This document shows, piece by piece, positions 17,640-52,211 of a stretch of 64,000 bases of DNA. The translations under genes were made by a program, and so were the position numbers. How positions within the stretch are numbered: the stretch's first letter is position 1; every line of letters starts with the position of its first letter. The notes under the pieces are model-generated. The model was given only the letters and a program-made list of their open reading frames with translations, ran no database searches and was not told the DNA's origin. The stretch is from Acidimicrobiia bacterium (lineage in GTDB: Bacteria > Actinomycetota > Acidimicrobiia > Spongiisociales > Spongiisociaceae), in NCBI GenBank assembly GCA_011523635.1, contig WTGI01000084.1, forward strand, positions 1 through 64,000, in the 5' to 3' direction.

Positions 17640-17995
17640 GGGGGTGAACAGGTTTCGACGTCGGTAGTAGAGGTGTCGGAAGCGAGCCGAGGTCACCGGA
17701 GTCCTCGTTAAACAGCCGGTAACAACCATAAGTGCCAAGCCAAACCTTGCACTGGCTGCCTAGAGAAAGGTAGCCCGTCCCCCGGAGGGGTTCCTGCCGT
17801 CTTCGGAGTGGGCGTCGCTTAGCAGGATGGACTCGCCGGGATGCCCGGACCGGAGGGTCGAGATCAATCCGGGTGTAGGGCGGACGGTCACTCGCCGATG
17901 GAGTCCGACCGTCTGAAGGCTCGCCATCGGCTGCGCTCGGAGACGCCGCCACCGAAGTACCGACGGACCGGGGTTCGATTCCCCGCACCTCCACC
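17640..17995 (+). ncRNA. ssrA: transfer-messenger RNA
   Basis: The 5' end GGGGGTG (17640-17646) pairs over seven positions with CACCTCC (17986-17992); the T-arm GGTTCGATTCC lies just before and ACC follows. The conserved 5' stretch GGTGAACAGGTTTCGAC is present. The tag frame is read from GCC 17734 to TAG 17763 and encodes AKPNLALAA, a short tag ending in the usual LALAA degron; AAGT before the resume codon fits the consensus context. The final A of CCA is not encoded. Position next to smpB supports it. Confidence 0.95.
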
Positions 17996-18060
17996 GCGTG
18001 ATTCGATACGTCCCAGCGGGCGTTCGCTATCCGGTGGGCCGCTCATGTTTTGATCGCGCA

Positions 18061-29190: not shown

Positions 29191-30300
29191 ATGGTTGGTG
29201 ATGGCACCGATCCGCCCCCCGAGTTGGACGATGAGGAGGCTGGGGAACAGCCTGCCGACCCCGACGGCTCTCCTCCCGAGTCCGAAGAGTTCACCGACCG
29301 CGACTACATCCGGTCCACCACCCGGGAATACAAGGGCCTGGCCGAAGCGGTAGCCCGGGCCGGCGAGGAGGAGGTCGAGCAGTCGGCGGTGGCGGCCTCG
29401 ATCCCGGGGGTCGGCACCAGCGTGGTCGGTTTCGAGGATGTGACCGGCGTCGAGGAGGAAGACCCGGAGCAGATCGAGCAGATCGACCGGGCCCGCCGTT
29501 CCGAATTGGCGCTCCGGATCGCCACCGGCCTGGCTGCGGTGGCTGTCTTCTTCGGGTCCCTGTATATGGGACCGCTGTGGGTCACCCTGTTCGTCAGCCT
29601 CCTGATCCTGGTCGCGGTGGCGGAGTTCTACCAGGCGGTCCGCCGGGTCGGTTTCACGCCCCTGGCCTTCATCGGCCTTCCCGGGGCGGCGGCGGTCATG
29701 TACGTGGCGTGGGACTCCGGGCCCGCCGCGGTGGGTGGGGTTCTCGCAGCCGTGATCTTGCTGTCGGGCCTGTTCTTCGTGATGGCCGGTCGGAACTATC
29801 CGCTGGCCAACATCGGGGTCACGGTCCTCGGCGTGGCCTGGGCGCCGGTTCTGGCCTCCTTCGCCGTGCCCATCTTCCGGTCCCCCCAAGCGTGGGGCTT
29901 GACGACCGCCCTGGTGGTTTTGACCGCTCTCAACGACATTGCCGCCTTCTCCTACGGACGCACGCTTGGAAAACGCCGCATGGCCCCCAACCTCTCACCC
30001 AACAAGACCGTGGAAGGGTTTCTCGGCGCCACCGTCATCACCGTGCTGGCAGGGGTCGTGATCGGGAGGTTCGGGCTGCTCGAGCCGCTCACCCTTCAAT
30101 CGGGCATAGCGCTGGCCGCGGCCATCAGCGTGTTCGGGCCCATTGGCGACCTGGCCGAGTCGGCGGTGAAGCGGTCGATCGACGTCAAGGACATGGGTAG
30201 CAGCCTGCCCGGCCATGGTGGGGTGCTGGACCGGCTGGACGCCTTCATGTTCGCGATTCCTACCGCCTATCTGGTGTATCTCTGGTTCGGATACCTGTGA
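29191..30300 (+). CDS. cdsA: phosphatidate cytidylyltransferase
   Basis: 369 residues. Residues 1-105 are an acidic, probably cytosolic extension without recognised motif; then about eight membrane helices. The CDP-diglyceride synthase signature is complete near the C-terminus: S-x-V-K-R-x4-K-D-M-G, L-P-G-H-G-G and D-R-L-D, which coordinate Mg and CTP. It makes CDP-diacylglycerol for phospholipid synthesis. The stop overlaps the dxr start as GTGA. Confidence 0.93.
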   Translation: MVGDGTDPPPELDDEEAGEQPADPDGSPPESEEFTDRDYIRSTTREYKGLAEAVARAGEEEVEQSAVAASIPGVGTSVVGFEDVTGVEEEDPEQIEQIDRARRSELALRIATGLAAVAVFFGSLYMGPLWVTLFVSLLILVAVAEFYQAVRRVGFTPLAFIGLPGAAAVMYVAWDSGPAAVGGVLAAVILLSGLFFVMAGRNYPLANIGVTVLGVAWAPVLASFAVPIFRSPQAWGLTTALVVLTALNDIAAFSYGRTLGKRRMAPNLSPNKTVEGFLGATVITVLAGVVIGRFGLLEPLTLQSGIALAAAISVFGPIGDLAESAVKRSIDVKDMGSSLPGHGGVLDRLDAFMFAIPTAYLVYLWFGYL

Positions 30301-31430
30301 GGCCCGTTGTCGTCCTGGGGGCGACGGGGTCGATCGGTCGCCAGACACTCGAAGTAGCGGACCGCCTCGGCGTTCCGGTGGCGGGCCTTGCCGCGCGACG
30401 CGCAGGAGACGACCTGGCTCGGTTGGCCGACCGTTACCCGCAGGCGACCGTGGTGGCGGTAGCACCCGACCCGGACGGCCATGGCCGTTTTCGCCGGGAG
30501 TACGGCACCCGCTACGCCTCGGGTCCCGGCGCGCTGGTGGAGATGGCTCAGCACCCCGCTTCGACGGTGGTGAACGGGGTGGTGGGGTCGGCGGGTCTCG
30601 AATCGTCCATCGCCGCGCTGGAGGCGGGAAACCGGCTTGCTCTGGCCAACAAGGAAAGCCTGGTCGTGGGCGGTGAACTGGTGATGGCAGCCGCCCGCCA
30701 CGGTGAGCTGGTCCCGGTCGATTCGGAGCACTCGGCGCTCTTCCAGTGCATGGTGGGGGAGCGGATTCCCGAGGTTGCCCGCCTAGTGCTGACCGCCTCC
30801 GGCGGCCCCTTTCGAGGCCGGGAGCGGGAACAGTTGGGCCACGTGGGAGTCGATGAGGCTCTGGCCCATCCCACCTGGAACATGGGACCTCGGATAACCA
30901 TCGACTCGGCCACGCTGGTCAACAAGGGCCTGGAGGTGATCGAGGCCCACTTCCTGTTCGGTCTGGCTTTCGAAAAGGTGGACGTAGTGGTACATCCGCA
31001 GAGCATCGTCCACTCGCTGGTGGAGTTCGTGGATGGATCCCTGAAGGCCCATCTGGGTGTCACCGACATGCGGATCCCGATCCAGTACGCACTCTCGTAT
31101 CCGCAACGCGCTCCAGGCAGCTTCCCCCGGTTCGACCTGACACGGTCCGACCTGACCTTCGAGGCGGTCGACCGCGACGCCTTTCCCGCGCTCGACCTCG
31201 CCTACGCCGCAGGACGGGCCGGGGGAACCGTCCCGGCGGCTTTCAACGCGGCTGACGAGGTGGCTGTGGCCGCCTTCCTGGAGGGGCGGATCGGGTTTCT
31301 CGACATTCCCGCCGTGATCGCCGAGGTGCTGGGGGGCCATCAGGCAATGGAGCCGACCTCGATCGAGGTGGTGATCGAAGCCGATCGGGCTGCCCGGAGA
31401 GCCGCTCACGCCGTAGTGGAGCGCCGGTAG
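30297..31430 (+). CDS. dxr: 1-deoxy-D-xylulose 5-phosphate reductoisomerase
   Basis: 377 residues from GTG 30297. NADPH site G-A-T-G-S-I-G-R-Q-T, A-N-K-E-S-L-V, metal/substrate site D-S-E-H-S-A-L-F-Q and T-A-S-G-G-P-F-R, and the N-x2-D/E-region L-V-N-K-G-L-E-V-I-E-A. First committed step of the MEP isoprenoid pathway; ispG of the same pathway is two genes downstream. Translational coupling with cdsA is likely. Confidence 0.95.
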   Translation: MRPVVVLGATGSIGRQTLEVADRLGVPVAGLAARRAGDDLARLADRYPQATVVAVAPDPDGHGRFRREYGTRYASGPGALVEMAQHPASTVVNGVVGSAGLESSIAALEAGNRLALANKESLVVGGELVMAAARHGELVPVDSEHSALFQCMVGERIPEVARLVLTASGGPFRGREREQLGHVGVDEALAHPTWNMGPRITIDSATLVNKGLEVIEAHFLFGLAFEKVDVVVHPQSIVHSLVEFVDGSLKAHLGVTDMRIPIQYALSYPQRAPGSFPRFDLTRSDLTFEAVDRDAFPALDLAYAAGRAGGTVPAAFNAADEVAVAAFLEGRIGFLDIPAVIAEVLGGHQAMEPTSIEVVIEADRAARRAAHAVVERR

Positions 31431-31440
31431 AGGAGAGGTC

Positions 31441-32550
31441 TTGGTCGGCGGAATAATGATGGTGCTGGCCATCTCGGCGTTCATCGTCGTGCACGAGGCC
31501 GGCCATTACTGGGCAGCCCGCGCCACCGGGATGAAGGCCACCGAGTTCTTCCTCGGCTTCGGGCCTCGCCTGTGGTCGTTCCGCCGTGGGGAGACCGAAT
31601 TCGGCGTGAAGGCGCTCCCGTTCGGCGGCTACGTGCGGATCGCGGGCATGACGATCGGCGAGCGGATCGACCCGGCCGACGCGGGGCGCGCGTATCGGGA
31701 CCAGCCCTTCTGGAAGAAGTCGGTGGTGGTCCTTTCCGGGGTGACGCTCAACCTCCTGACCGCGTACCTGCTGCTGTTCGGCCTGTTCTGGTATTCCGGC
31801 ACCGCCGAACTGACCACCGCGGTGGAGAGGGTCAGCCCCGAGATCTCTCCGGGAGTGCCCAGTCCGGCCGCCGTGGCGGGTGTGCTGGACGGAGACGTCA
31901 TGATCGAGATCGACGGCGTGGTCCTGGACGGTTGGGAACAGGCGGTGCAGCTGATAATGAGCCGCCCCGGCGAGACGGTCAACCTGGAGGTCGTTCGCGA
32001 CGGCCGTCCTCGTTCCCTGACGGTCACCCTGGGCTCGTTCCATCCCCAGACCGGTGAGGCAGTGGGTTTCCTAGGCGTTTCGCCCCGGGCCCGACGGGTC
32101 TCGATCGGGCCCGTTACGGCCGCCGGAATGGCGGCCACGGCGGAGTGGGCGATCATCTCGGGCGCACTGGATGCCATAACACGCATCGTTCGACCCGGAT
32201 CGCTGCTCGAGTTGGGCGGCGTGCTGGCCGGGCAGAGCGACGTTCCGGAAGAGATCCGGCCGGTCAGTCCGATCGGCCTGGTCAGGATCGGCAGCCAGGC
32301 GTCGGAGGTGGGCATCGGCAACCTCGTCTTCATCCTGGCGGTCGTGAACGTCACCCTGGCACTGTTCAACAGCGTGCCCCTGTACCCGCTCGACGGCGGG
32401 CATTTCGCGGTGGCGCTCTACGAGAAGGTCACGGGCCGGCGGGTGGACCACCGGAACCTGGTCCCCATCGCCGCTCTGGTGATCCTGTTCATGCTGTTCC
32501 TAGGCCTGGTGGCGATCGTCCTCGACATCGTCAATCCTCTTACTTTGTAG
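31441..32550 (+). CDS. rseP: site-2 family intramembrane zinc metalloprotease
   Basis: 369 residues from TTG 31441, with AGGAGAGG just upstream (ATG 31456 is the alternative). The zinc motif HEAGH is in the first helix (about residues 17-21), a PDZ domain lies at about 125-200, and the second active-site motif is P-L-Y-P-L-D-G-G-H near residue 315. This is the M50 protease that cleaves anti-sigma factors or remnant signal peptides within the membrane (Rip1-like in actinobacteria). Placement between dxr and ispG is the conserved actinobacterial order. Confidence 0.92.
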   Translation: MVGGIMMVLAISAFIVVHEAGHYWAARATGMKATEFFLGFGPRLWSFRRGETEFGVKALPFGGYVRIAGMTIGERIDPADAGRAYRDQPFWKKSVVVLSGVTLNLLTAYLLLFGLFWYSGTAELTTAVERVSPEISPGVPSPAAVAGVLDGDVMIEIDGVVLDGWEQAVQLIMSRPGETVNLEVVRDGRPRSLTVTLGSFHPQTGEAVGFLGVSPRARRVSIGPVTAAGMAATAEWAIISGALDAITRIVRPGSLLELGGVLAGQSDVPEEIRPVSPIGLVRIGSQASEVGIGNLVFILAVVNVTLALFNSVPLYPLDGGHFAVALYEKVTGRRVDHRNLVPIAALVILFMLFLGLVAIVLDIVNPLTL

Positions 32551-32683
32551 ACGAGTAGTGGCCAGTGGCCGGTGGCCAAGTTGCCAGAGGTGACACGGGG
32601 GTGGTCAAGTTCGTCTGGCCCCCGACCTAATCCGTTGCCCCTGTCAGTCCTGAGTCCACTGACCACTGACCACTGACCACTGG
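32551..32683. repeat. heptanucleotide array (inverted arms), locus d
   Basis: Left arm AGTGGCC, AGTGGCC, GGTGGCC from 32557; right arm CCACTGA three times and CCACTGG at 32656-32683. The arms are reverse complements of each other in consensus but use a different heptamer (CAGTGGY) from loci a-c; the shared core is YAGTNG. It starts right after the rseP stop and ends 18 bases before the ispG start. Confidence 0.8.
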
Positions 32684-32701
32684 TAGTAACATGGCGGTCT
32701 G

Positions 32702-33907
32702 ATGGCTCACCGCGAACGAACCAGGCAGATTCACGTGGGTCGCGTGCCGGTTGGGGGTGGCGCTCCGGTCTCGGTTCAGTCGATGACCACCACCAAGACC
32801 GCCGACGTGGACGGCACCCTGGCACAGGTCTATGCGCTGGCCGGGGCCGGCGCCGACATCGTCCGTATCACCTGCAACGATGTAGCCGCTGCCGAGGGGC
32901 TGGCCGAGATCGTTCCCCGCTCGCCGGTGCCGATCATCGCCGACATCCATTACCAGTACCGCCTGGCCCTTGCGGCGCTCGAAGCCGGCGTGCAGGGCTT
33001 GCGACTCAACCCGGGCAACATCCGGAAGCCGGACCAGATCCGGGCGGTGGCTCGTGACGCCAAGGACCGGGGGATCCCCATCCGGGTGGGCGTCAACGCC
33101 GGCAGCCTGGACCGCGATCTGATGAAGCGGTACGGTTCCGCCACGCCCGAGGCGCTGGTGGCGTCGGCGCTCAAGGAGATCGAGTACCTGGCCGAGGAAG
33201 ACTTCCATGACATCAAGATCTCCGTCAAGCACTCCCACGTGCCATCCATGGTCGAGTCCTACCGCCTCCTGGCGGACACAGTCGGCTTCCCCCTCCATCT
33301 CGGTGTCACCGAGGCGGGGCCCCCACCGGGCGGACTGATCAAGTCGGTGGCCGGCATAGCCACCCTGCTGCTCGAAGGCATCGGCGACACCATCCGCTTC
33401 TCGTTGACCGCCGATCCCGTGGAGGAGGCCAGGGCCGGACGGCAGCTCCTCGAGTATCTCGACCTGCGGGAGCGCACCGGGCTCGACCTGATCGCCTGTC
33501 CCAGTTGCGGGCGAGCGGAGGTCGACGTGCTGGAGGTAGCACAAGCTGCTCAGGCCAGGCTGGAGGAGGCCAAGCTTCCCATCCAGGTGGCCGTCATGGG
33601 CTGCGTGGTGAACGGACCCGGAGAGGCACGGGAGGCCGACCTCGGGATCGCTGCCGGACGGGGCCGGGGGCACCTGTTCATCAAGGGCAAGGTGGTGAGG
33701 GTGGTGCCGGAGGACGAGATGGTGGAAGCCTTACTCGACGAGGCCCGCAAGCTGGTTGCCGAGGGCGTGGAGGCCCGGATCGCCGCGGCCGACGATCGGG
33801 CCGCCGACCTGGCCGCCGAGGACCGGCAGGTGCTGATCGACATCCAGGGCGACGCCAATAGGTCCGCAGCCCGCCGCGCCGCGGTAGCCGACGTGGCAGC
33901 TCGGTGA
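32702..33907 (+). CDS. ispG: 4-hydroxy-3-methylbut-2-en-1-yl diphosphate synthase
   Basis: 401 residues. TIM-barrel domain with V-Q-S-M-T-T-T-K-T-A-D and G-L-R-L-N-P-G-N-I at the substrate site, and a C-terminal [4Fe-4S] domain with C-P-S-C-G-R, G-C-V-V-N-G-P-G-E providing the cysteines and Glu ligand. It is the bacterial two-domain type. MEP pathway step after IspF. The C-terminal ~40 residues are Ala/Asp-rich and may be a disordered tail. Confidence 0.95.
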   Translation: MAHRERTRQIHVGRVPVGGGAPVSVQSMTTTKTADVDGTLAQVYALAGAGADIVRITCNDVAAAEGLAEIVPRSPVPIIADIHYQYRLALAALEAGVQGLRLNPGNIRKPDQIRAVARDAKDRGIPIRVGVNAGSLDRDLMKRYGSATPEALVASALKEIEYLAEEDFHDIKISVKHSHVPSMVESYRLLADTVGFPLHLGVTEAGPPPGGLIKSVAGIATLLLEGIGDTIRFSLTADPVEEARAGRQLLEYLDLRERTGLDLIACPSCGRAEVDVLEVAQAAQARLEEAKLPIQVAVMGCVVNGPGEAREADLGIAAGRGRGHLFIKGKVVRVVPEDEMVEALLDEARKLVAEGVEARIAAADDRAADLAAEDRQVLIDIQGDANRSAARRAAVADVAAR

Positions 33908-33942
33908 CGCTCCACGCCTCTGAGTAAAGCGTAGGGGTTCCG

Positions 33943-35640
33943 GTGCGCTGGTCACGTGCGTTCATTCCCACCCTCCGCGACGATCCGGCGGATGCGGTCG
34001 CGGCCAGCCACCGCTTGCTGGTCCGGGGCGGTTTCATCCGCCAGCTCATGGCCGGTTCATATTCGATGCTCCCGCTCGGGATGCGGGTCGCCACCAAGGT
34101 CTCCGACATCATCCGGGAAGAGATGAACGCCATCGGCGGCCAGGAGTTCCTGGCGCCCGTGGTCCATCCAGCGGAGCTGTGGAAGAAGACCGGTCGATGG
34201 GAAGACGTCGAGGGGATCATGGTCAAGTTCGAGGATCGCCGGGGCGCCGACCTCGTGCTGGCCCTGACCCACGAGGAGGTGTTCGCCCACCTCGCCTCGG
34301 AATTGAACTCCTACCGGGAACTACCCCAGCTCTGGTATCACCTCCAGACCAAGTTCCGGGACGAAGCCCGGCCCAAGTCCGGCCTCCTCAGGGTGAGAGA
34401 GTTCATCATGAAGGACTCCTACTCGCTGGACATCGGCCCGGACGGCCTCGACGTCCAGTTCGAGGCCCACCGCGGCGCCTACGACCGGATATTCGCCCGT
34501 CTGGGTCTTGATTCCATCCAGGTGGAGGCCTCCTCCGGCAACATGGGCGGCAGCGACTCCGTGGAGTTCGTGGTGCGCTCGGACACCGGTGAGGACCGCG
34601 TCGCCCTGTGCGGCAACTGCGGATACGCCGCCAATCTGGAGCGGGCTGTCAGCGAACCCGACCAGGTGAAGGACGAGCCTTGGGAGGGCCCGCCCCTGCC
34701 CTTCCCGACTCCGGGAGTTCGCACCATCGCGGCGCTCACCGCTATGGGCCGGTTCGCCGCCGCTCGCCGCCAGATCAAGACCCTCGCCTACTACGTGGGG
34801 GACGAGTTCACGCTGCTGGTGCTGAGGGGCGACCACGACCTCGAAGTCCAGAAGGTGGTGGACTCGGTGGCCGGAGTGGTTCGCCCGGCGACCGAAGGAG
34901 AGATCGTCAAGCGGCTCGGCGCTCATCCCGGGAGCCTCGGGGCAGTAGGCGTGGAGTATCCCGTGATCGCAGATCCGGCCCTTCGGGGGCGCTCCAACAT
35001 GGTGACCGGCGCCAACGAGGACGACGTTCACCTGCGAGGCGTGGACGTGGAGCGCGACCTCCCGGTGGGCAGTTGGCTGGACATGCGTTCGGTGCGGGAG
35101 GGGGAGGCTTGCCGGGGTTGCCCGTCCGGGTCCCTCTCGTTGTCGAGAGTGATCGAAGTGGGTCACATCTTCAAGCTCGGCCTCAAATACAGCGAAGCCC
35201 TCGGGGCCATGGTTCTCGACGAGTCGGGACGGCCCACGCCCATCGTGATGGGTTCCTACGGGATCGGTGTCGGGCGGTCGATGGCTGCTGTCGCGGAGGT
35301 CAGCCACGACGCCAAGGGGATCATCTGGCCCACCTCCGTGGCGCCGTTCGCGGTCGTGATCACCCTCCTCCGACCCGACAACCCGGCAGTAGCAGAGGCG
35401 GGAGAACGCCTCTACCGCGACCTGGACAACGCCGGGATCGAGGTCCTGCTGGACGACCGCAACGAGCGTCCGGGCGTCAAGTTCGCCGATGCCGAGTTGG
35501 TCGGGATTCCCTACCGGCTGACGATAGGCCCCCGGGGTATCGATGCCGGAGAGGCCGAACTGGTGGCCCGCGACGGCTCGCTGGCCGAATCCGTTCCCCT
35601 CGACGAGGTGGTGGAACGGCTTGCCGGGCTGGTGTCATAG
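33943..35640 (+). CDS. proS: prolyl-tRNA synthetase (bacterial type with editing domain)
   Basis: 565 residues from GTG 33943. Class II motifs: motif 2 K-F-R-D-E-x-R-P-K-S-G-L-L-R-V-R-E-F, motif 3 G-S-Y-G-I-G-V-G-R. An insertion (about residues 225-385) between motifs 2 and 3 is the YbaK-like editing domain that clears Ala-tRNA(Pro). The anticodon-binding domain is at the C-terminus (V-V-I-T-L-L-R-P ... L-L-D-D-R-N-E-R-P-G-V-K-F-A-D). Normal length and full domain set. Confidence 0.95.
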   Translation: MRWSRAFIPTLRDDPADAVAASHRLLVRGGFIRQLMAGSYSMLPLGMRVATKVSDIIREEMNAIGGQEFLAPVVHPAELWKKTGRWEDVEGIMVKFEDRRGADLVLALTHEEVFAHLASELNSYRELPQLWYHLQTKFRDEARPKSGLLRVREFIMKDSYSLDIGPDGLDVQFEAHRGAYDRIFARLGLDSIQVEASSGNMGGSDSVEFVVRSDTGEDRVALCGNCGYAANLERAVSEPDQVKDEPWEGPPLPFPTPGVRTIAALTAMGRFAAARRQIKTLAYYVGDEFTLLVLRGDHDLEVQKVVDSVAGVVRPATEGEIVKRLGAHPGSLGAVGVEYPVIADPALRGRSNMVTGANEDDVHLRGVDVERDLPVGSWLDMRSVREGEACRGCPSGSLSLSRVIEVGHIFKLGLKYSEALGAMVLDESGRPTPIVMGSYGIGVGRSMAAVAEVSHDAKGIIWPTSVAPFAVVITLLRPDNPAVAEAGERLYRDLDNAGIEVLLDDRNERPGVKFADAELVGIPYRLTIGPRGIDAGEAELVARDGSLAESVPLDEVVERLAGLVS

Positions 35641-35673
35641 CCCTTCCGCGGCAGTCTCCTTGGGTGGGACAAA

Positions 35674-35682
35674 TGCTATGAT
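35674..35682 (+). promoter_or_regulatory. extended -10 promoter for the rimP-nusA leader
   Basis: TGC-TATGAT (35674-35682) fits an extended -10 element; no good -35 box is seen at normal spacing. It lies 34 bases after the proS stop and would start a leader of ~180 bases that contains the terminator hairpin at 35724 before rimP. Confidence 0.5.
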
Positions 35683-35723
35683 TCACGCGCAGACACTCGA
35701 AGGACGTGACTTTGTGCTACAAG

Positions 35724-35747
35724 GTGGGCGCCCAGCCCGCTTTTTTT
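35724..35747 (+). terminator. intrinsic terminator/attenuator in the rimP leader
   Basis: Six-pair GC-rich stem (35724-35729 with 35735-35740, one G-T wobble), five-base loop, followed by seven T at 35741-35747. It is the only textbook Rho-independent terminator in this 20-kb gene run. Its place downstream of a promoter-like element and 118 bases before rimP suggests either the end of proS messages or a NusA-responsive attenuator. Confidence 0.75.
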
Positions 35748-35864
35748 ATTGTAGAAACCGGCTGGCCGGCGTATTCCTCCGCGTCGAAAGCCCGTCACAC
35801 CACCACGCCACGCGGGGCGAGAGCGCTTTCTCCAGCGACAACCGGCGGCTCGGGGCCGGGGCCC

Positions 35865-36347
35865 ATGAGCATTGAGGAACGGCTTGGAGATCTGTTCGAG
35901 CAGCATCTCTCCGGCCAGGGCCTGGAACTCGACTATCTCCAGGTGGCCGGCAGGGGTCCGCGAATAGTCCGGGTGATCGTCGATCGTGAAGGCGGGGTGG
36001 GGGTCGACCAGTTGGCGGCCGTCTCCCGCTCCCTGTCACGCCAACTCGACCGCCTTGATCCCTTCGAGGGTTCGTATTCGCTGGAGGTGTCGTCGCCGGG
36101 GCTTGAGCGCGCCCTCCACCTTCCCCGTCACTTCCACAAGTCGATCGGCCGGGACGTGACCATCAAGACCAACGTCGAGGTAGCGGGCTCCCGGCACCAT
36201 CGGGGTGTGCTGGAAGCGGCCGATTCGGATGGGTGCTCCGTGCGGGTCGACGGTGAGTCGAGGATGATCGGATACGGACAGATACGGTCGGCGCGGACCC
36301 GGTTCGAGTGGAACAGGCAAGGCCGGGCGACCAGGAAGTCGGGGTAA
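35865..36347 (+). CDS. rimP: ribosome maturation factor RimP
   Basis: 160 residues from ATG 35865; an in-frame extension to 35706 covers the terminator and is not coding. N-terminal domain with the conserved V-D-R-E-G-G-V and the linker S-Y-S-L-E-V-S-S-P-G-L-E-R-A-L, followed by an SH3-like domain. It assists 30S assembly. First gene of the conserved rimP-nusA-infB-rbfA-truB-rpsO-pnp set. Confidence 0.93.
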   Translation: MSIEERLGDLFEQHLSGQGLELDYLQVAGRGPRIVRVIVDREGGVGVDQLAAVSRSLSRQLDRLDPFEGSYSLEVSSPGLERALHLPRHFHKSIGRDVTIKTNVEVAGSRHHRGVLEAADSDGCSVRVDGESRMIGYGQIRSARTRFEWNRQGRATRKSG

Positions 36348-36351
36348 CGGG

Positions 36352-37374
36352 ATGAAGATTGACTACCGGGTCATGGAGGCCCTCGAGATGCTGGAGCGGG
36401 AGCGAGGCATTCCTGTCGACACGATTCTCGCTGCCCTGGCCAACGCTCTCGTGTCGGCCTACAAGCGGACTCCGGGAGCCGCTGAGGAGGCCCGCGTGAC
36501 CATCGAGCCGGACTCCGGCGAGATCATCGTCTACGCCCAGGAGCTCGACGACGACGGAAACGTCATCGAGGAGTGGGAGGACACCTCCACGGACTTCGGT
36601 CGGATCGCCGCCAGCACCGCCAAGCAGGTGATCGCCCAGCAGCTCAGGGAAGCCAAGCGCGAGCAGGTGTTCGACGCCTACGAGGGCCGGGAGGGCGACC
36701 TGGTGACCGGCATGGTGCAGCAGCATGACAACCGTTATACGATTCTCGACCTGGGGAATGCCGAGGCGATGATGCCGGGTTCCGAGCGTATCCCGTACGA
36801 GCGGCTGGAGCGGGGCGCCCGGGCCAAAGCACTGATCATCGAGGTTCGGCGGGAGACCAAGGGTCCGCAGATCGTGGTGTCGCGCTCCCATCCCGACCTG
36901 GTTCGCCGGCTGCTCGAGCTGGCGGTGCCGGAGCTGCTGGACGGAACGGTGAAGATCCGTTCGATAGCCCGGGAAGCGGGCCATCGAACCAAGATCGCCG
37001 TGGTGTCCAATGATCCCAACGTGGATCCGAAGGGCGCTTGCGTAGGGGCCCGTGGCTCCCGGGTACGCAACGTCGTGAACGAGTTGCGGGGCGAGAAGGT
37101 GGACGTGGTGCAATGGCGCGAGGACACGGCCCAATTCATCGCCGAAGCTCTCGGCCCGGCCAAGGTGCGCGACGTGCAGGTTGATGAGGAGGAGAAGTCG
37201 GCGGTGGTGATCGTGAGCGAGCACCAGCTCTCGCTGGCCATCGGTCGGGAAGGTCAAAACGCCCGGTTGGCCACCCGGCTCACGGGCTACCGCATCGACA
37301 TACAGAGCGACTCCAGGTCCCCGCGGCCTTCTCGGGATCGGGGACGCGGTCCGGTCACCGCCGGTGGCCGGTAA
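36352..37374 (+). CDS. nusA: transcription termination/antitermination factor NusA
   Basis: 340 residues: N-terminal RNA polymerase-binding domain (1-110), S1 domain (about 118-185, V-T-G-M-V-Q-Q onward), and two KH domains (about 190-330) with G-A-C-V-G-A-R-G-S-R-V and A-I-G-R-E-G-Q-N-A-R-L. No C-terminal acidic repeats, as in other actinobacteria. The gene for YlxR, usually located between nusA and infB, is absent: only 42 bases separate them. Confidence 0.95.
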   Translation: MKIDYRVMEALEMLERERGIPVDTILAALANALVSAYKRTPGAAEEARVTIEPDSGEIIVYAQELDDDGNVIEEWEDTSTDFGRIAASTAKQVIAQQLREAKREQVFDAYEGREGDLVTGMVQQHDNRYTILDLGNAEAMMPGSERIPYERLERGARAKALIIEVRRETKGPQIVVSRSHPDLVRRLLELAVPELLDGTVKIRSIAREAGHRTKIAVVSNDPNVDPKGACVGARGSRVRNVVNELRGEKVDVVQWREDTAQFIAEALGPAKVRDVQVDEEEKSAVVIVSEHQLSLAIGREGQNARLATRLTGYRIDIQSDSRSPRPSRDRGRGPVTAGGR

Positions 37375-37416
37375 GGGGCGCACCCTCGTGAGGGGACAGC
37401 GGAGGCGTAGGCATCC

Positions 37417-39438
37417 ATGGTGACCAAGCGCATCTACGAGCTTGCCAAGGAGATGGGCCTGGCCTCGCGCGACGTCCTGGCCACGGCACAGGACCTGGGA
37501 CTGCCGGTTACCACCGCCTCCTCCGGGCTGGATCCCGGCGATGCCGAGGCCCTTCGCTCCATGCTCCTGCCCGAGGAGCCGGAGGAGGATGTTGCCGACG
37601 CTGAGCACGCGCCCGACTTGCCGGAGGAGGACTCGCCGCCCGAAGTCGAGGAATCCGAGCCCGACATCGAGGTCATCGTGGTGCCGGCCGGGGTGTCGGT
37701 GCTCGAGATGGCGAGGGCCATGCGCCAGCCCGTGGGAGAGGTCGTCAAGCAGCTGCTGTCGATGGGACTGATGGCGGCCGCCGCCGCACCCGTTCCGCCC
37801 GACGCCATCGAGCCCCTGGGGGAGCACTTCGGGATCATGGTGGAGGTCGAGGAGGGTGCGGAACCGGAGGAGGCCGACGAGCCCCTGGTCAAGCCGAAGA
37901 GGGTGTTCGACGACGATCCCGCCACCCTGGTCGGTCGCCCGCCCGTAGTCACGGTGATGGGGCATGTCGATCATGGCAAGACGACGTTGCTGGACTTCAT
38001 CCGCAACACCAATGTCGTGTCGGGAGAAGCCGGGGGGATCACCCAGCACATCGGCGCGTACCAGGCCACGGTGGACGGCCGTCCGATCACCTTCATCGAC
38101 ACCCCCGGCCATGCCGCCTTCACCGCCATGCGGGCCCGGGGCGCCGAGGTGACCGACATCGTCGTCCTGGTGGTGGCGGCGGACGACGGCGTGATGCCAC
38201 AGACCATCGAAGCGATCAACCACACCATGGCGGCAGACGTGCCGATGATCGTCGCCATCAACAAGATGGATCTTGAGAATGCCGACCCTGTGAGGGTCCG
38301 GGCCATGCTGACCGAGCACGGGATAGTCACGGAAGAACTGGGTGGCGAGGTCGTCTCGGTGGAGGTGTCCGCAACGTCCGGGGACGGTATGGACAACCTT
38401 CTGGAGATGATCGACCTGGTCGCGCAGGTATCGGAGTTCCAAGCCAACCCGAAGGCCCTGGCGTCGGGAGTGGTGATCGAGAGCCACCTCGATCGAGGGC
38501 TGGGTCCGGTAGGTACCGTGATCGTGCAACGGGGAACCTTGAAGAGGGGGAATTCCCTGGTGGCAGGGACGGTGAGCGGCCGGGCCCGCTCCATCATCGA
38601 CCACAAGGGGAGCCGTGTCTCCACAGCGACTCCGTCCACTCCGGTGCTGGTATCGGGATGGACGTCCGTGCCGGCGGCCGGTGACATGTTCGAGGTGGTC
38701 AAGAACGACCGTATAGCCCGTTCCATGGCCTCCGAGCAGGTGGATGCGGTTCGGGCCAGGACGCTCGTCGTGCCCACCGCCCGCGAGCGCCTCGGGCAGT
38801 TGCTGGAGCGTCTGCGGTCCCAGGAGCAGACCGAACTCCTCCTGATCATCAAGGCCGACGCCGATGGTTCGGTGGAGGCGATCCGGGAGGCGGTCGGCCA
38901 GATCGCCCGGGAGGGTGGTCGGGTCAACGTGGTGCATGCCGCGGTGGGCGGCATCAACGAGAACGACATCACACTGGCCGACGCGACCGGCTCGGTGGTG
39001 GTCGGCTTCAACGTCCGTCCCGATCCGAACGCGAGGCGGGCGGCTGCGGCGTCCGGGATCGAAGTGCTGACCTACTCGATCATCTACGAGCTCCTCGACG
39101 ACATGGAGCAGATGCTGGTCGGACGGCTGGCTCCGACCCGAGAGGAGACCCTGGTCGGTGTGGCTCAGGTACGGGCCATCTTCCGCGTGCCCCGCCTGGG
39201 TGCCGTGGCCGGTTGCTACGTGACCGAGGGCAACATCGCGAGAGACGCTAGGGCCCGGGTGGTCCGGGGCGGGAGCGTGGTCTACGACGGTCGGGTGGCG
39301 TCTCTGCGCCGGTTCAAGGAGGATGTGCGCGAGGTGGTGGCCGGATACGAGTGCGGTCTCGGGCTGGAACGCTTTCGGGACGTCAAGGAGGGTGACGTCA
39401 TCGAGACCTACCGCATCGATGAGATCGCAGCCACATGA
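37417..39438 (+). CDS. infB: translation initiation factor IF-2
   Basis: 673 residues. N-terminal helix domain (T-K-R-I-Y-E-L-A-K-E), a short acidic linker (about 55-90), then the IF2-N second domain and the G domain with G1 G-H-V-D-H-G-K-T, G3 D-T-P-G-H and G4 N-K-M-D, followed by domains II, III and the fMet-tRNA-binding domain IV. The protein is markedly shorter than typical actinobacterial IF-2 (900 or more residues) because the long Pro/Gly/Ala-rich N-terminal extension is missing. It positions initiator tRNA on the 30S subunit. Confidence 0.96.
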   Translation: MVTKRIYELAKEMGLASRDVLATAQDLGLPVTTASSGLDPGDAEALRSMLLPEEPEEDVADAEHAPDLPEEDSPPEVEESEPDIEVIVVPAGVSVLEMARAMRQPVGEVVKQLLSMGLMAAAAAPVPPDAIEPLGEHFGIMVEVEEGAEPEEADEPLVKPKRVFDDDPATLVGRPPVVTVMGHVDHGKTTLLDFIRNTNVVSGEAGGITQHIGAYQATVDGRPITFIDTPGHAAFTAMRARGAEVTDIVVLVVAADDGVMPQTIEAINHTMAADVPMIVAINKMDLENADPVRVRAMLTEHGIVTEELGGEVVSVEVSATSGDGMDNLLEMIDLVAQVSEFQANPKALASGVVIESHLDRGLGPVGTVIVQRGTLKRGNSLVAGTVSGRARSIIDHKGSRVSTATPSTPVLVSGWTSVPAAGDMFEVVKNDRIARSMASEQVDAVRARTLVVPTARERLGQLLERLRSQEQTELLLIIKADADGSVEAIREAVGQIAREGGRVNVVHAAVGGINENDITLADATGSVVVGFNVRPDPNARRAAAASGIEVLTYSIIYELLDDMEQMLVGRLAPTREETLVGVAQVRAIFRVPRLGAVAGCYVTEGNIARDARARVVRGGSVVYDGRVASLRRFKEDVREVVAGYECGLGLERFRDVKEGDVIETYRIDEIAAT

Positions 39439-39459
39439 TCGCGCTGACGTGAGTTCCCC

Positions 39460-39762
39460 ATGGCGAGCATGCACGCAGCAGCGCTCCGGGTTGATCTGCG
39501 TTTGCGGGATGTTCATTCGCTGAAGGCCAAGCGGCAGCGCATCGCCCGGCTGTCCGCCAAACTGCGCCGGGCGTTCCCCGTGGCGTTTGCCGAGGTCGAT
39601 CACCATGACCAGTGGCAGCGGACCGCGGTGGGGGTGGGCATCGTCTCGCCGCATGCGACGCAGTTGGAGATGGCGGTCCATTCGGTGTGTCGTTTCTTCG
39701 ATCGGTGGGAGGAGGCCGAAGTGCTGTCGGTCGGGGTTTCCTACCTCGAGGACCCGCCATGA
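39460..39762 (+). CDS. DUF503 (YlxP-like) family protein
   Basis: 100 residues; recognised by the small ferredoxin-like fold of the DUF503 family with V-H-S-L-K-A-K-R-Q-x-I and V-A-F-A-E-V-D-H-H-D-Q-W-Q-R. The family sits between infB and rbfA in many Gram-positive bacteria and is presumed to take part in translation or ribosome assembly, without a defined activity. Confidence 0.85.
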   Translation: MASMHAAALRVDLRLRDVHSLKAKRQRIARLSAKLRRAFPVAFAEVDHHDQWQRTAVGVGIVSPHATQLEMAVHSVCRFFDRWEEAEVLSVGVSYLEDPP

Positions 39763-39775
39763 CGGAGAAGGCGGT

Positions 39776-40126
39776 ATGGGCCTGAGGCTCCGGCGGGTCA
39801 ACGAGATCCTCAGAGAGGTCATCGCCGAGGAGTGCCAGAACCTCAAGGATCCTCGCATCGGGTTCCTGACGGTGACCGGCGTGTCCGCGTCCCCCGATCT
39901 CCGCAAGGCCGAGGTCTATTACACGGTTCTCGGTGACGAGGATGCCGAGGCCCGGACCGCCGAGGCGCTGGCGGCGGCGGCCTCCCGGATCCGCGCCGCG
40001 GTGGGTCCGCAGGTACGGATGAAATACCTCCCGGAGTTGAGGTTCGTTCCCGATCCGGCTGTGGTTCACGCCCGGCGGATCGAGGAGATACTGAGGAACA
40101 TGGACGAGCGAGGCGGGAGCCGGTGA
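39776..40126 (+). CDS. rbfA: ribosome-binding factor A
   Basis: 116 residues from ATG 39776. KH-like fold with R-V-N-E-I-L-R-E-V-I-A-E-E, L-K-D-P-R-I-G-F-L-T-V-T, S-x-D-L-R-K-A-E-V-Y and P-E-L-R-F-V-P-D. It binds the immature 30S subunit near helix 1 of 16S rRNA. The stop overlaps the start of the DHH phosphatase gene. Confidence 0.93.
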   Translation: MGLRLRRVNEILREVIAEECQNLKDPRIGFLTVTGVSASPDLRKAEVYYTVLGDEDAEARTAEALAAAASRIRAAVGPQVRMKYLPELRFVPDPAVVHARRIEEILRNMDERGGSR

Positions 40127-41094
40127 TGCCGGGGGAACGCCGCGGCCTCATGGATGCGGCCCGCGCCGTCCGGCAGGCCGCCACGCTGGTCGCCACGGGC
40201 CATGTCAAACCGGACGGTGATGCCTTGGGGTCTGCCCTGGGTCTGGCGCTGGCGGCCCGGGCTGCGGGCCGCTCGGCGCGAGTCTGCTTCGGCGAGCGCT
40301 TCGTCCCGGGACGGCACTACGGCTTCCTGGATACCCGTCCGGTGGTGGGTCCCGAGGAGGCCGGCGCTCCCGACGTGCTGGTGGCCTTCGACTGCAATGA
40401 CCCGGACCGGCTCGGCGCGGAGTTGGCCCCTGTGGTCGAGGCGGCCGGTACGGTGGTGATGATCGACCATCACGTGGCGGGTCCAGGATTCGGGGACATC
40501 AGGGTGTCCGACCCGGATGCTCCGGCGGCCGCGCTGCTCTGCTACCGCCTGATCAGGCTGATCGGATGGGATGTGCCGGCCGAGGCGGCCACGGCCCTGT
40601 TGCTGGGCCTGGTTACCGACACGGGTCGCTTCCAGTACGGCAACACCAATCCCGAGGTCCTCCGGGCGGCGGCGGAGCTGGTGGAAGCAGGAGCGCGCCC
40701 GGAGGTGATCGGGCAGTCCGTCTACGAGTCGGTGGCGTTCGGGTACCTCGGCGTGGCCGGAACGGTGCTGTCCCGCGCCACGCTCGAGCCGGCTCACGCC
40801 CTCGTCTGGTCCTACGTCACCCAGGACGATCTCGGGCGCCACGGCATCGGGATGGAGGACGCCGACGCCCTGATCGACGACATTCGGGTGGCCCGGGAGG
40901 CCGAGGTGGCGCTGTTGCTCAAGGAGCAGCCCGGCGGGGAGTGGAAGCTGAGCCTGAGATCCCGCCGGCACGTGGATGTCGCCGCCATAGCCGAGACGAT
41001 GGGTGGTGGCGGCCACCACCGGGCCGCCGGATGCTCGTTCTCGGGCACGCGGGACGAAGCGGTCGAAGTCGTCAGGAAACGGCTGGCCGGGTGA
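40123..41094 (+). CDS. nrnA: DHH/DHHA1 phosphoesterase, oligoribonuclease/pAp-phosphatase NrnA type
   Basis: 323 residues from GTG 40123 overlapping the rbfA stop. DHH domain motifs: K-P-D-G-D-A-L-G-S, V-A-F-D-C-N-D, and the D-H-H triad in V-M-I-D-H-H; DHHA1 domain with the substrate motif G-G-G-G-H-H-R-A-A-G. It degrades nanoRNA and cyclic-dinucleotide-derived pGpG/pApA or pAp. Position between rbfA and truB is conserved in Gram-positives. Stop overlaps the truB start as GTGA. Confidence 0.92.
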   Translation: MMPGERRGLMDAARAVRQAATLVATGHVKPDGDALGSALGLALAARAAGRSARVCFGERFVPGRHYGFLDTRPVVGPEEAGAPDVLVAFDCNDPDRLGAELAPVVEAAGTVVMIDHHVAGPGFGDIRVSDPDAPAAALLCYRLIRLIGWDVPAEAATALLLGLVTDTGRFQYGNTNPEVLRAAAELVEAGARPEVIGQSVYESVAFGYLGVAGTVLSRATLEPAHALVWSYVTQDDLGRHGIGMEDADALIDDIRVAREAEVALLLKEQPGGEWKLSLRSRRHVDVAAIAETMGGGGHHRAAGCSFSGTRDEAVEVVRKRLAG

Positions 41095-41972
41095 GTGCCG
41101 GTTCCGGGTTCGTCCTGGTCGACAAGGCCGGCGGGTGGACGTCCCATGATGTGGTGGCCAAGTGTCGCCGGATCCTCGGTATGCGCCGGATCGGGCACGC
41201 AGGCACCCTCGATCCCATGGCGACCGGCCTGCTCGTCCTCGGCATCGGGAGGGCCACCCGGCTGCTCCGCTTCGTCACCGACCTGCCCAAGGAGTACGAG
41301 GCCACGGCCCGCTTCGGCGTGGCCACCGACAGCCTGGACGCCGACGGCAAGGAGACGGCGCGGGTGCCGATGAGCGTCGACCGTGAGGATGTGGTCGGCG
41401 CCCTGGACCGCTTCAGGGGAGAGATCCTCCAGACACCGCCGATGGTGTCGGCGGTGAAGGTGGGCGGCAGGAGGCTGCATGAGCTGGCCAGGCGCGGCGA
41501 GGAGGTGGAACGGCCTCCCCGGAAGGTGAGGGTGCACCGCCTGGATGTGGAGGGTTTCTCGGCCGGGCCGTTCCCGGAGGTCCGCCTCCGGGTGGTCGGA
41601 GGGAGCGGCCTCTACGTCCGGGTACTGGCCGACGACCTGGCCGGGGCCCTCGGCGGGCGGGCCCACCTGACCGCCCTTCGCAGGGTGGCGAGCGGCAGCC
41701 TCCGGGTGGAAGAGGCGTGGACGATCGACCGGTTGGTGCGCCTCGGCGCCGAGGGCCGCCTGGCAGAAGCGGTGCTGGAACCGGCCGCCGCCCTGTCGCA
41801 TCTGCCGTCCGTGAGTGTGGACCACGACAAGGCTGTACGGGTGCGTAGCGGGCAACGACTGCCCTCCCCTCCTGACCTGGACGGGCTGGTTCGGGTGATC
41901 GCGGAGGGGCGTCTGCTGGCCATCTACCGCGCCCGTGACGATCGGCTGGTTCCGGAGGTTGTGCTGGCGTGA
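41091..41972 (+). CDS. truB: tRNA pseudouridine-55 synthase
   Basis: 293 residues from GTG 41091. Catalytic Asp in G-H-A-G-T-L-D-P-M-A-T-G-L-L, K-E-Y-E-A-T strand, P-P-M-V-S-A-V-K segment and G-L-Y-V-R-V-L-A-D-D motif; a PUA-like C-terminal region follows. It makes the universal pseudouridine 55 in the T-loop of tRNAs. Confidence 0.94.
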   Translation: MSAGSGFVLVDKAGGWTSHDVVAKCRRILGMRRIGHAGTLDPMATGLLVLGIGRATRLLRFVTDLPKEYEATARFGVATDSLDADGKETARVPMSVDREDVVGALDRFRGEILQTPPMVSAVKVGGRRLHELARRGEEVERPPRKVRVHRLDVEGFSAGPFPEVRLRVVGGSGLYVRVLADDLAGALGGRAHLTALRRVASGSLRVEEAWTIDRLVRLGAEGRLAEAVLEPAAALSHLPSVSVDHDKAVRVRSGQRLPSPPDLDGLVRVIAEGRLLAIYRARDDRLVPEVVLA

Positions 41973-41982
41973 ATCGGGTCCG

Positions 41983-42900
41983 ATGAAGATCTGGAGGGGC
42001 GATCCACTCGCCTGGGGACCGGGCCCGGATGGCGGGACGGCACTGACCATAGGCGTATTCGACGGCGTCCACCGGGGTCACCGGACGCTGCTGGACGACC
42101 TGGCGGAGCAGGCCGTCCGAGCGGGGGGCCTCGAGACGGTCGTGGTTACGTTCGATGTCCATCCCCGCCGGTTCTTCGATCCGATCCACGGGCCGGCCTT
42201 GCTGGTGACGCTGTCCCGCCGGCTCGAGTTGCTGGAGTCGGCGGGTGCGGACCACGTGGGGGTGCTCCCTTTCGCGGACGTGCGCCACCTCGGTCCCGAG
42301 GACTTCATCCGCCGGGTGGTGTCGGGCGGGTTCAACGCCCGAGCCGTGGTGGTGGGCGAGGGTTTCCGGTACGGGGCCGGTAGAGCCGGAGACGTGGACG
42401 ACCTGGTGGCATCGGGCCATTCCCACGGCTTCCGGGTCGAGGCCATCCGGCTGCAGGACGGTAAGGAAGGGCCGATCTCGTCGTCCACGATCCGTCGCCA
42501 CATAGCGGTGGGTGAGGTAGCGGCTGCGGCCGAGTTGCTCGGCCGGCCTCATGAAGTGCCCGGCCGGCTCGTCACACCTGAGGAGAGAGGGGATGCCTCG
42601 ACCCTGGCCGTGGATGTGGACTGGTCGATGGCGGTGCCCGGATCCGGGGTATACGCAGTGACCCTAGGCGCGGACGACCCCGACAGCCCCGGCGCCTGCG
42701 CCATCGGTGGTGCCGACCGACCGCTCCGGGTCCGCCTGCCGGATCGGTCGACCGGTCCGGCTCCGGGCGACCGCCTGGTCCTGACCTTCCTCGACCGCCT
42801 CCGCCCTTCTCCGCCGGGAGGCAGTGCTCCACCCCGGATCACCCCCGCGGATCTCGCACGAGTACTTCGCCTGAAGGGTGGTTCCTCCCGTCGAGTCTGA
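41983..42900 (+). CDS. ribF: RibF-like FAD synthetase with a degenerate riboflavin kinase domain
   Basis: 305 residues from ATG 41983. The N-terminal adenylyltransferase half is well conserved: GVFDGVHRGH, T-F-D-V-H-P, and I-S-S-S-T-I-R. The C-terminal half aligns as a riboflavin kinase domain (L-L-G-R-P-H-x-V-P-G to P-G-S-G-V-Y-A-V) but the G-x-P-T-A-N ATP/Mg motif is replaced by a D-A-S-T-L-A-V stretch and the catalytic Glu strand by L-R-V-R-L-P. The protein may therefore make FAD from FMN without phosphorylating riboflavin. Gene position after truB is standard. Confidence 0.85.
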   Translation: MKIWRGDPLAWGPGPDGGTALTIGVFDGVHRGHRTLLDDLAEQAVRAGGLETVVVTFDVHPRRFFDPIHGPALLVTLSRRLELLESAGADHVGVLPFADVRHLGPEDFIRRVVSGGFNARAVVVGEGFRYGAGRAGDVDDLVASGHSHGFRVEAIRLQDGKEGPISSSTIRRHIAVGEVAAAAELLGRPHEVPGRLVTPEERGDASTLAVDVDWSMAVPGSGVYAVTLGADDPDSPGACAIGGADRPLRVRLPDRSTGPAPGDRLVLTFLDRLRPSPPGGSAPPRITPADLARVLRLKGGSSRRV

Positions 42901-43023
42901 GCCCGCCTCCGGAGAGTGAGAAACATAGGGGTTGAACTCCGGTGGATATGGGTCCACTATGGCCATCACGGGGCGCACGGGGGACGGCACACACCTGCAA
43001 GCGACATGATTGGATGATTTCAA

Positions 43024-43224
43024 GTGGACGATCGAGACCGCAACGGGCAGCTCTTTCGGGCCTATCTGGCCGTGTTCGAGCTCACCTACCTGCGCATCCT
43101 GCTGGCGTTCCTGCAATTCCAGCGCTGGGCCATGATCACCTTCTACCGCCTGGTGCTCGGGATCGACAAGCGCCCTCCGCCCCGGCCGACGCAGGCGGAG
43201 CTCCGCGAGAGGTACGGGCGGTGA
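43024..43224 (+). CDS. small hydrophobic protein (66 aa)
   Basis: 66 residues from GTG 43024, third codon positions strongly G/C like the neighbours, and a hydrophobic/aromatic stretch (about residues 14-45: F-E-L-T-Y-L-R-I-L-L-A-F-L and W-A-M-I-T-F-Y) that could be a membrane-associated amphipathic helix. No family recognised. No good ribosome site is visible before the GTG. It occupies the gap between ribF and rpsO. Confidence 0.5.
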   Translation: MDDRDRNGQLFRAYLAVFELTYLRILLAFLQFQRWAMITFYRLVLGIDKRPPPRPTQAELRERYGR

Positions 43225-43430
43225 AGCGAGGGGGGCACGCAAAATAGTCCGGTTGGTCTGATAGCCGGCAGCACCCGAGTCGACGGATCGCTGGTCAACC
43301 ACCCCGTCGCTTTCAGCACCTTCCTTGGCAGCTCGCGGCCGGCGCGCACCCGGTCGCCATGGAGGTGCTACACTCCGGCCGGTCCCCACTTCTACATGCC
43401 GGTCCGGTATGTGCTGATCGAGTGAGAGAG

Positions 43431-43688
43431 ATGAAACCGACCCAGGAAATTGTTGCCGAGTTCGGCGCACACGACAGCGACACCGGATCTCCCGAGGTCC
43501 AGGTCGCGCTGCTCTCACAGCGAATCCGTCACCTGACCGATCACCTGCGTGAGCACAAGCATGACCATCACAGCCGCCGAGGTTTGCTGATGATGGTGGG
43601 CAAGCGCAAGCGGCTACTGGACTACCTGCGGACGAACGATGCCGAGCGGTATCGTCGGGTGATCGCCAAGCTCGGATTGCGTCGATAG
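43431..43688 (+). CDS. rpsO: 30S ribosomal protein S15
   Basis: 85 residues from ATG 43431; GTG 43422 would add three residues and give the more usual 88. Conserved [13 protein letters not shown][16 protein letters not shown] and L-L-x-Y-L-R motifs. It binds 16S rRNA helix 22 and 23a. Located before pnp as in most bacteria. Confidence 0.94.
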
Positions 43689-43986
43689 CATCCACGGAGA
43701 TGGTCGCCCACAGCCAACCGGGTCCGGTAGTCAAGAAAGAGGTGGGATGATCGAAGCGCCCCGTATGGCGCTGATCGATGATGACGGCTGATCAGGAAAG
43801 TCCTGCCGGCCAACCAACCACACAAGCAGGCTGGTAACGCTCCGGAGAACGGCGTTGATCAGTTGTCAGTCGCCATCCCTTCATGACGCGGCGCAGCTAC
43901 GAAGCGTCCGGAGGTATGACCACTGGTAATTGACTTCGCCGCTCTCCGAGCGACAGGTGCCTGGGCATAGAAACCAAGGAGAGCAT
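43689..43986 (+). other. rpsO-pnp intergenic leader with hairpins
   Basis: 298 bases with no supported gene. Short hairpins are seen: GCGCC/GGCGC and CAGGA/TCCTG (about 43757-43808). In other bacteria the rpsO-pnp spacer carries a structured leader processed by RNase III and used by PNPase to repress itself; whether this leader does so is inference. AAGGAG at 43976-43981 is the pnp ribosome site. Confidence 0.4.
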
Positions 43987-51837: not shown

Positions 51838-52211
51838 CTGCGGCGAGTTCGCCAGACGGCCGCGGTTGCCCAGGGCAATCGAGGAAAGTCCGGACTCCAC
51901 AGGACAGGGAGCTGGGTAACGCCCAGGCGGGGCGACCCGACGGAAAGTGCCACAGAGACCAGACCGCCGATGGCCCCTTTCGGGGCACAGGCAAGGGTGA
52001 AACGGTGGTGTAAGAGACCACCAGCATCCCGGGAGACCGGGGTGGCTGGTAAACCCCTCCCGGAGCAAGGTCAAGCAGAGGCGTCGGTGGTCCGCCGATC
52101 GAGCCTCGGGTGGACCGCACCGAGGTCTGGCGGTAACGCAGACCCCAGATGGATGGCCGTCGCCCGCTACAGGCGGGTACAGAATCCGGCTTACCGGCGG
52201 GCTCGCCGCAG
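51838..52211 (+). ncRNA. rnpB: RNase P RNA, bacterial class A
   Basis: Helix P1 is CTGCGGCGAG (51838-51847) paired with CTCGCCGCAG (52202-52211). Universally conserved segments are present: GAGGAAAGTCCGGACTCC near 51891, GGTAACGCC-like spacer, ACAGAGACC, and the 3' AGAATCCGGCTTAC near 52181. A TATCCT six bases before P1 may be the -10 element. The ribozyme matures tRNA 5' ends and probably the tmRNA 5' end. Confidence 0.95.

Follow-up and report, generated by a model that had tools for sequence, protein, structure and literature searches.

A conserved rimP-leader-type hairpin follows a candidate promoter upstream of the rimP-nusA-infB operon in an order of Acidimicrobiia

The window that we analyzed, a 64,000-nt stretch of a contig from an uncultured Acidimicrobiia bacterium, carries proS, rimP, nusA, and infB in this order on the forward strand. 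The proS open reading frame stops at position 35640 and rimP begins at an ATG at 35865. The gap between these two genes holds an extended −10 element, a GGACG motif, a hairpin, and a tract of seven T residues, which are located as follows.

33943 to 35640, + strand: proS (prolyl-tRNA synthetase), an open reading frame with Pfam domains tRNA-synt_2b, HGTP_anticodon, and tRNA_edit; the upstream neighbor, outside the putative switch
35674 to 35682, + strand: extended −10 element TGCTATGAT, identified from sequence, with a conserved hexamer and without a −35 box
35702 to 35706, + strand: GGACG, at about +13 of the predicted transcript; AA precedes it in the family of the window, giving AAGGAC, which resembles a Shine-Dalgarno (SD) sequence
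35706 to 35864, + strand: stop-free frame that runs from GTG 35706 or TTG 35712 across the hairpin and continues into rimP; a possible N-terminal extension, uncertain
35721 to 35743, + strand: terminator stem-loop with a GGGc...gCCC core (the rimP-leader motif), identified by scan, folding, and covariation; the model built on it matches 5′ of rimP in other classes
35741 to 35747, + strand: T7 tract, identified from sequence, with T tails counted in relatives
35865 to 36347, + strand: rimP, with Pfam domains RimP_N and DUF150_C and the annotated ATG start
36352 to 37374, + strand: nusA, with Pfam domains NusA_N, KH_5, and KH_2; the candidate feedback regulator
37417 to 39438, + strand: infB, an open reading frame identified by inspection of its translation and location

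The NusA protein encoded in the window is 98% identical to the nearest named NusA, which comes from an Acidimicrobiia MAG. A Pfam S1 domain was not detected in it at an E-value of 0.001, which perhaps reflects weak detection only. The same window also includes a tmRNA gene (17640 to 17996, + strand) and a class A RNase P RNA gene (51844 to 52209, + strand).

The hairpin has the shape of an intrinsic terminator. Its stem is formed by nine base pairs between AAGGTGGGC and GCCCGCTTT, and the core sequence GGGCGCCCAGCCC at positions 35726 to 35738 conforms to the GGGc...gCCC motif. When folded alone, the hairpin has a predicted energy of −13.6 kcal/mol (z = −2.57). A generic terminator scan of positions 30000 to 44000 yielded six sites, among which the leader hairpin has the longest stem, compared with 4.3 ± 2.3 sites in shuffled sequences. 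Because this count hardly exceeds that of the shuffles, the scan proves nothing alone, and the odds of a chance occurrence were judged instead by uniqueness and conservation. Indeed, the pattern GTGGGC-N(2-12)-GCCCRC-N(0-3)-TTTT has one match in the 3,146,511-base genome, and a reversed control pattern has none. A first-pass annotation of this DNA had proposed an intrinsic terminator at this site, and both this single match and the recurrence of the hairpin among relatives described below bear out that assignment. The distance from the T run to the rimP ATG, which the annotation gave as 118 bases, is 117.

A sigma-70 scan of positions 35000 to 36400 returned no two-hexamer promoters, and a −35 box is absent, so the promoter assignment depends on the extended −10 element and its conservation. 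This element lies where it was originally noted, and the gap between it and the stem, earlier put at about 40 bases, measures 38.

To compare leaders in relatives, as the first-pass annotation had suggested, 59 genomes of the order (including that of the window) were searched with NusA. One (G033) gave no NusA match and another (G057) gave a fragment only, leaving 57 readable genomes. A GTGGG-type hairpin is located upstream of nusA in 56 of these 57 genomes, which are related and thus not independent. A hexamer of the form TA[TCA][ACG][ACG]T is found 5′ of the hairpin in 54 of the 57 (counting locus L136, whose hairpin is of another type), compared with 0 to 4 of 56 or 57 in ten control windows of the same loci. 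Only L016, L018, and L030 lack the hexamer, and among the 53 genomes measured, the −10 element is separated from GTGGG by 24 to 41 nt. This conservation of both the hairpin and the hexamer lifts the site above chance.

The one deviating locus (G046, L136:643-713) retains GGACGC and carries, in the same place, a different hairpin, GGCGCC...GGCGCC followed by TTTT. A pattern search recovered the hairpin in 52 of the 57 genomes, missing L017, L027, L114, and L117 in addition to L136. In these four, the hairpin can be seen by eye and a proper T tract is absent, such that its role may be in pausing the polymerase or in binding a factor, and not in termination by itself. Thus, the hairpin may not be a simple terminator everywhere. 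The T counts for L028, L029, L112, L113, and L132 are too low because the 3′ arm was misparsed.

Selection on the stem was evaluated by aligning 44 leaders out of 55 distinct sequences; the set omits nine near-duplicates, L039, and L136, whose stem differs. Base pairing is maintained in 98.0% of 352 cells, 31 of which are changed on both sides, in pair counts that omit the sole deviating hairpin and derive from rows partly picked by a TGGG...CC pattern that helps to fix those columns. None of 500 shuffled alignments reaches the observed pairing, double changes, or covariation score, whereas the observed count of pair types is reached in 123 of the 500. When the stem partners are slid relative to each other, pairing falls to between 37% and 67%. 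The GGG and CCC segments are present in all 44 rows, where L124 has the variant GGGT...ACCC. Moreover, G-U or U-G pairs occur at four of the eight stem positions, in 4, 12, 13, and 24 of the 44 rows. These wobble pairs would be A-C mismatches in RNA from the opposite strand, which argues that it is the plus-strand RNA that is under selection.

A covariance model was built from the 44 aligned leaders and searched more widely. At an E-value threshold of 0.01, it matches 131 of 296 genomes in the class, comprising 87 from the order and 44 others, with eight listed genomes of the order unmatched; because the model derives from this order, matches within it are partly circular. In the phylum, 90 of 296 genomes match. 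Many of the weak, short matches in both searches are probably due to chance, and the association with rimP was checked at fetched loci only. These are the 58 best model loci, 25 of them from other classes, and rimP is located just downstream in 57; the contig of the remaining one (L184) ends first. Beyond the order, 26 leaders were compared (25 belong to other classes), and 23 of the 26 have the form GTGGG[CT]...CCCAC. A stricter stem pattern matched 7 of 77 loci from named genomes, none of which is from Micromonospora, Nocardioides, or Arthrobacter, so the leader does not occur throughout the phylum.

The hairpin could serve as a plain insulator that ends proS transcripts, with rimP expressed from a later promoter and no regulation involved. 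Such an arrangement would suit a stem that begins 80 bases past the proS stop codon, and, in the window, a promoter could fit into the 117 nt that follow the T tract. However, the −10 hexamer that precedes the hairpin in nearly all genomes is found in only 0 to 3 of 57 when windows offset by 90 to 290 nt downstream are examined. In addition, the T run is separated from the called rimP start by only 10 to 20 nt in 17 of 52 leaders, a count that relies on called starts of which two (L126 and L137) look wrong and five (L022 to L026) are doubtful. Since 10 to 20 nt is too little for a further promoter, rimP transcripts that start at the leader promoter must pass the hairpin. The leader is likewise retained where the upstream gene encodes a class-V aminotransferase (L166; serC by eye) rather than ProS, and where the upstream gene, encoding a C26 peptidase, is divergent (L172). 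The leader therefore belongs to rimP and not to proS, and we consider the insulator, which the first-pass annotation had named as the outcome that would speak against its proposal, to be improbable.

A terminator in this position has a precedent. Naville and Gautheret (2010; PMC2965389) described a rimP-leader consisting of a terminator with a GGGc...gCCC stem and a U stretch 5′ of rimP-nusA-infB, located 4 to 130 nt from the gene and without a visible antiterminator. The leader in the window precedes the same operon, has the same stem motif and U stretch, and lies within this distance range. Judged by these sequence features, the element is the rimP-leader of these authors and hence an attenuator of a known kind. 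It is also similar in that a conserved antiterminator is absent, as judged here by eye. The candidate segments CTTTGT/ACAAGG and CTACAA/TTGTAG do flank the hairpin in the family of the window (the former in only part of it); they appear by eye to be lost in other families. What sets the leader in the window apart is the extended −10 element and GGACG situated a short distance upstream, which do not form part of the rimP-leader as that article characterizes it, and, in the family of the window, a hairpin that lies within a frame open into rimP. GGACG and the in-frame hairpin may be new details. The same article names actinobacteria as a phylum with few predicted intrinsic terminators. No other account of an actinobacterial or mycobacterial rimP leader was found in the open-licence literature.

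An Rfam family, RF01770, shares both its name (rimP) and its operon with this leader, whereas its model has no match in the genome of the window at an E-value of 10, nor in positions 35600 to 35950. The RF01770 model is based mainly on gammaproteobacterial leaders. Searches of the leader for riboswitches, T-boxes, and ribosomal-protein leaders gave no RNA-family match, the nearest being a weak antisense hit to Bp1_162 (19.9 bits versus a cut-off of 50).

The architecture of a promoter element closely followed by a terminator upstream of an operon supports the interpretation that the leader is a transcription attenuator, as the first-pass annotation had proposed. Our preferred reading, to which we assign a probability of roughly 0.6, is that this rimP-leader attenuator mediates feedback by which NusA limits its own operon, where the start, the termination, its partiality, and the effect of NusA are what we infer as follows. 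Transcription would begin near position 35689, about 7 nt after the −10 element. After roughly 30 nt, the GGGc...gCCC hairpin would form, followed by U7. Some polymerases would halt in the T tract, yielding a terminated RNA of about 58 nt, and the remainder would read into rimP-nusA-infB. The NusA protein made from this operon would be the likeliest factor to raise termination, by analogy with published cases, such that abundant NusA would throttle the operon and scarce NusA would relieve it. The lack of an antiterminator common to the families fits a factor that acts on the polymerase or the hairpin, rather than a riboswitch.

The role of NusA in this scheme is putative and drawn from published analogy. 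NusA was named as the best candidate sensor of the rimP-leader, with reference to older work on repression of the operon by NusA (PMC2965389). According to a 2025 review citing Mondal 2016 (PMC12288461), B. subtilis NusA is autoregulated through NusA-stimulated termination in its leader. In both systems, a terminator of the intrinsic type lies in the leader of the operon that contains nusA. The lengths differ: about 180 nt for B. subtilis (PMC2965389) versus about 58 nt to the predicted terminated end here. In E. coli, the metY-rimP-nusA-infB operon has terminators t1 and t2 upstream of rimP, and NusA is said to affect its own operon (PMC6511841). As outlined there, the E. coli operon includes metY and several upstream promoters, whereas in the window there is one short leader after proS. 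Given that the idea of a NusA-responsive attenuator had already been printed for other phyla, the first-pass annotation amounts to the rediscovery of a known attenuator. One feature speaks against a terminator of the NusA-dependent type: these terminators often have interrupted distal U tracts (PMC8060035), whereas the stem in the window is stable and its T7 tract is unbroken.

GGACG is the other sequence shared by many leaders of the order. It is present within 30 nt 5′ of the hairpin in 44 of the 57 genomes, compared with 1 to 8 of 57 in 11 control windows, and it is found 13 to 19 nt after the −10 element in 40 of the 57; in L131, one of the 44, this distance is 5 nt. The 13 genomes that lack it include six of the seven f2 genomes (L131 being the seventh) and genus g4, which has CGACGC instead. 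Outside the order, 1 of 26 leaders (L195) has GGACG and none has GGACGC. The motif could be bound by a protein or could belong to the initially transcribed region. A role as a plain SD sequence was rejected, given that the part common to leaders outside the family of the window is GGACGC(T), with variable preceding bases.

A regulon sharing these elements was also considered and rejected. A search of 12 genomes for the −10 element plus GGACG gave 34 matches, 11 of which are the rimP leader, versus 124 matches for the reversed control. The hairpin pattern matched only the rimP leader, in the genome of the window and, in a stricter form, in 3 of the 12 genomes.

The conservation of both stem and GGACG raises the prospect that the same attenuator responds to another sensor, such as NusG, RimP (mentioned as an alternative sensor in PMC2965389), or a protein that binds GGACG or the GGGC stem. 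The stem sequence is fixed beyond what pairing demands, with four of eight pairs being G-C in 44 of 44 rows (which were partly pattern-picked), GGACG recurs in most genomes of the order, and the hairpins lacking T tracts persist in four genomes. However, direct evidence for such a factor is lacking, and GGACG is missing from so many leaders within and beyond the order that it is not essential to the mechanism. We regard a sensor other than NusA as unlikely.

The open frame that runs through the hairpin in the family of the window suggests another arrangement, one that the first-pass annotation had not raised. An SD sequence (AAGGAC, 35700 to 35705) and a start codon (TTG 35712 or GTG 35706) would place the terminator inside the 5′ part of the coding region. 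A ribosome that initiates promptly would cover the 5′ arm of the hairpin and permit readthrough, whereas slow initiation would allow the hairpin to form and transcription to stop. Within the family, 15 genomes were searched, of which 13 belong to genera g1 to g3 and two (L014 and L015) to g4. All 13 genomes of g1 to g3 lack a stop codon in this frame across the hairpin and into rimP, and the six spacer lengths from the T tract to rimP (117, 114, 120, 105, 93, and 72 nt) are all divisible by three. By a post hoc hand estimate, five independent length changes would all be multiples of three with a chance of about 1/243. The mean SD duplex energy is −8.6 kcal/mol before the TTG codon, compared with −6.2 kcal/mol before the annotated start and a background of −4.2 kcal/mol (standard deviation 3.4).

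Several observations weigh against translation-coupled attenuation. Another forward frame is also open in 10 of the 13 genomes, the frame is absent from g4, and the frame relation varies across other families. Third-position bias is absent from the linker among eight distinct g1 sequences, where 23, 13, and 20 of 38 sites each are variable at the three codon positions, versus 30, 17, and 78 of 159 in rimP. The RimP domain, which begins 12 residues downstream of the annotated ATG, does not need the extension, and in L005, L011, and L012 the annotated start is itself preceded by a good SD sequence. The pattern itself was noticed post hoc. Taken together, these sequence data leave translation through the hairpin in the family of the window a tentative proposition that we judge to be the weaker alternative, a regulatory role for such translation would be more doubtful again, and the translation-coupled attenuator as set out above is unlikely. 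A short leader peptide starting from the GTG of the stem was also considered and rejected, as its frames and stops differ among families.

A broader form of this idea would have the rimP-leader terminator absorbed into the rimP frame, such that the operon senses the capacity for translation initiation in addition to, or instead of, NusA, with GGACG being a further part of the switch across the order. We find this combination rather improbable as well, and retain the rimP-leader attenuator with NusA feedback as the favored reading.

In summary, the observation of a promoter-like element and terminator in this leader is confirmed and its interpretation is partly supported, revealing an element that is ordinary in kind and well conserved. 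The findings place the rimP-leader firmly in one actinobacterial class, and its compact arrangement of a −10 element plus hairpin is seen again at 25 loci from other classes. With a length of about 58 nt, the leader makes NusA feedback testable. If the in-frame reading were true, the hairpin would be coding sequence rather than untranslated region in the family of the window, and an operon that encodes NusA and IF2 (the infB product) would measure translation initiation directly.
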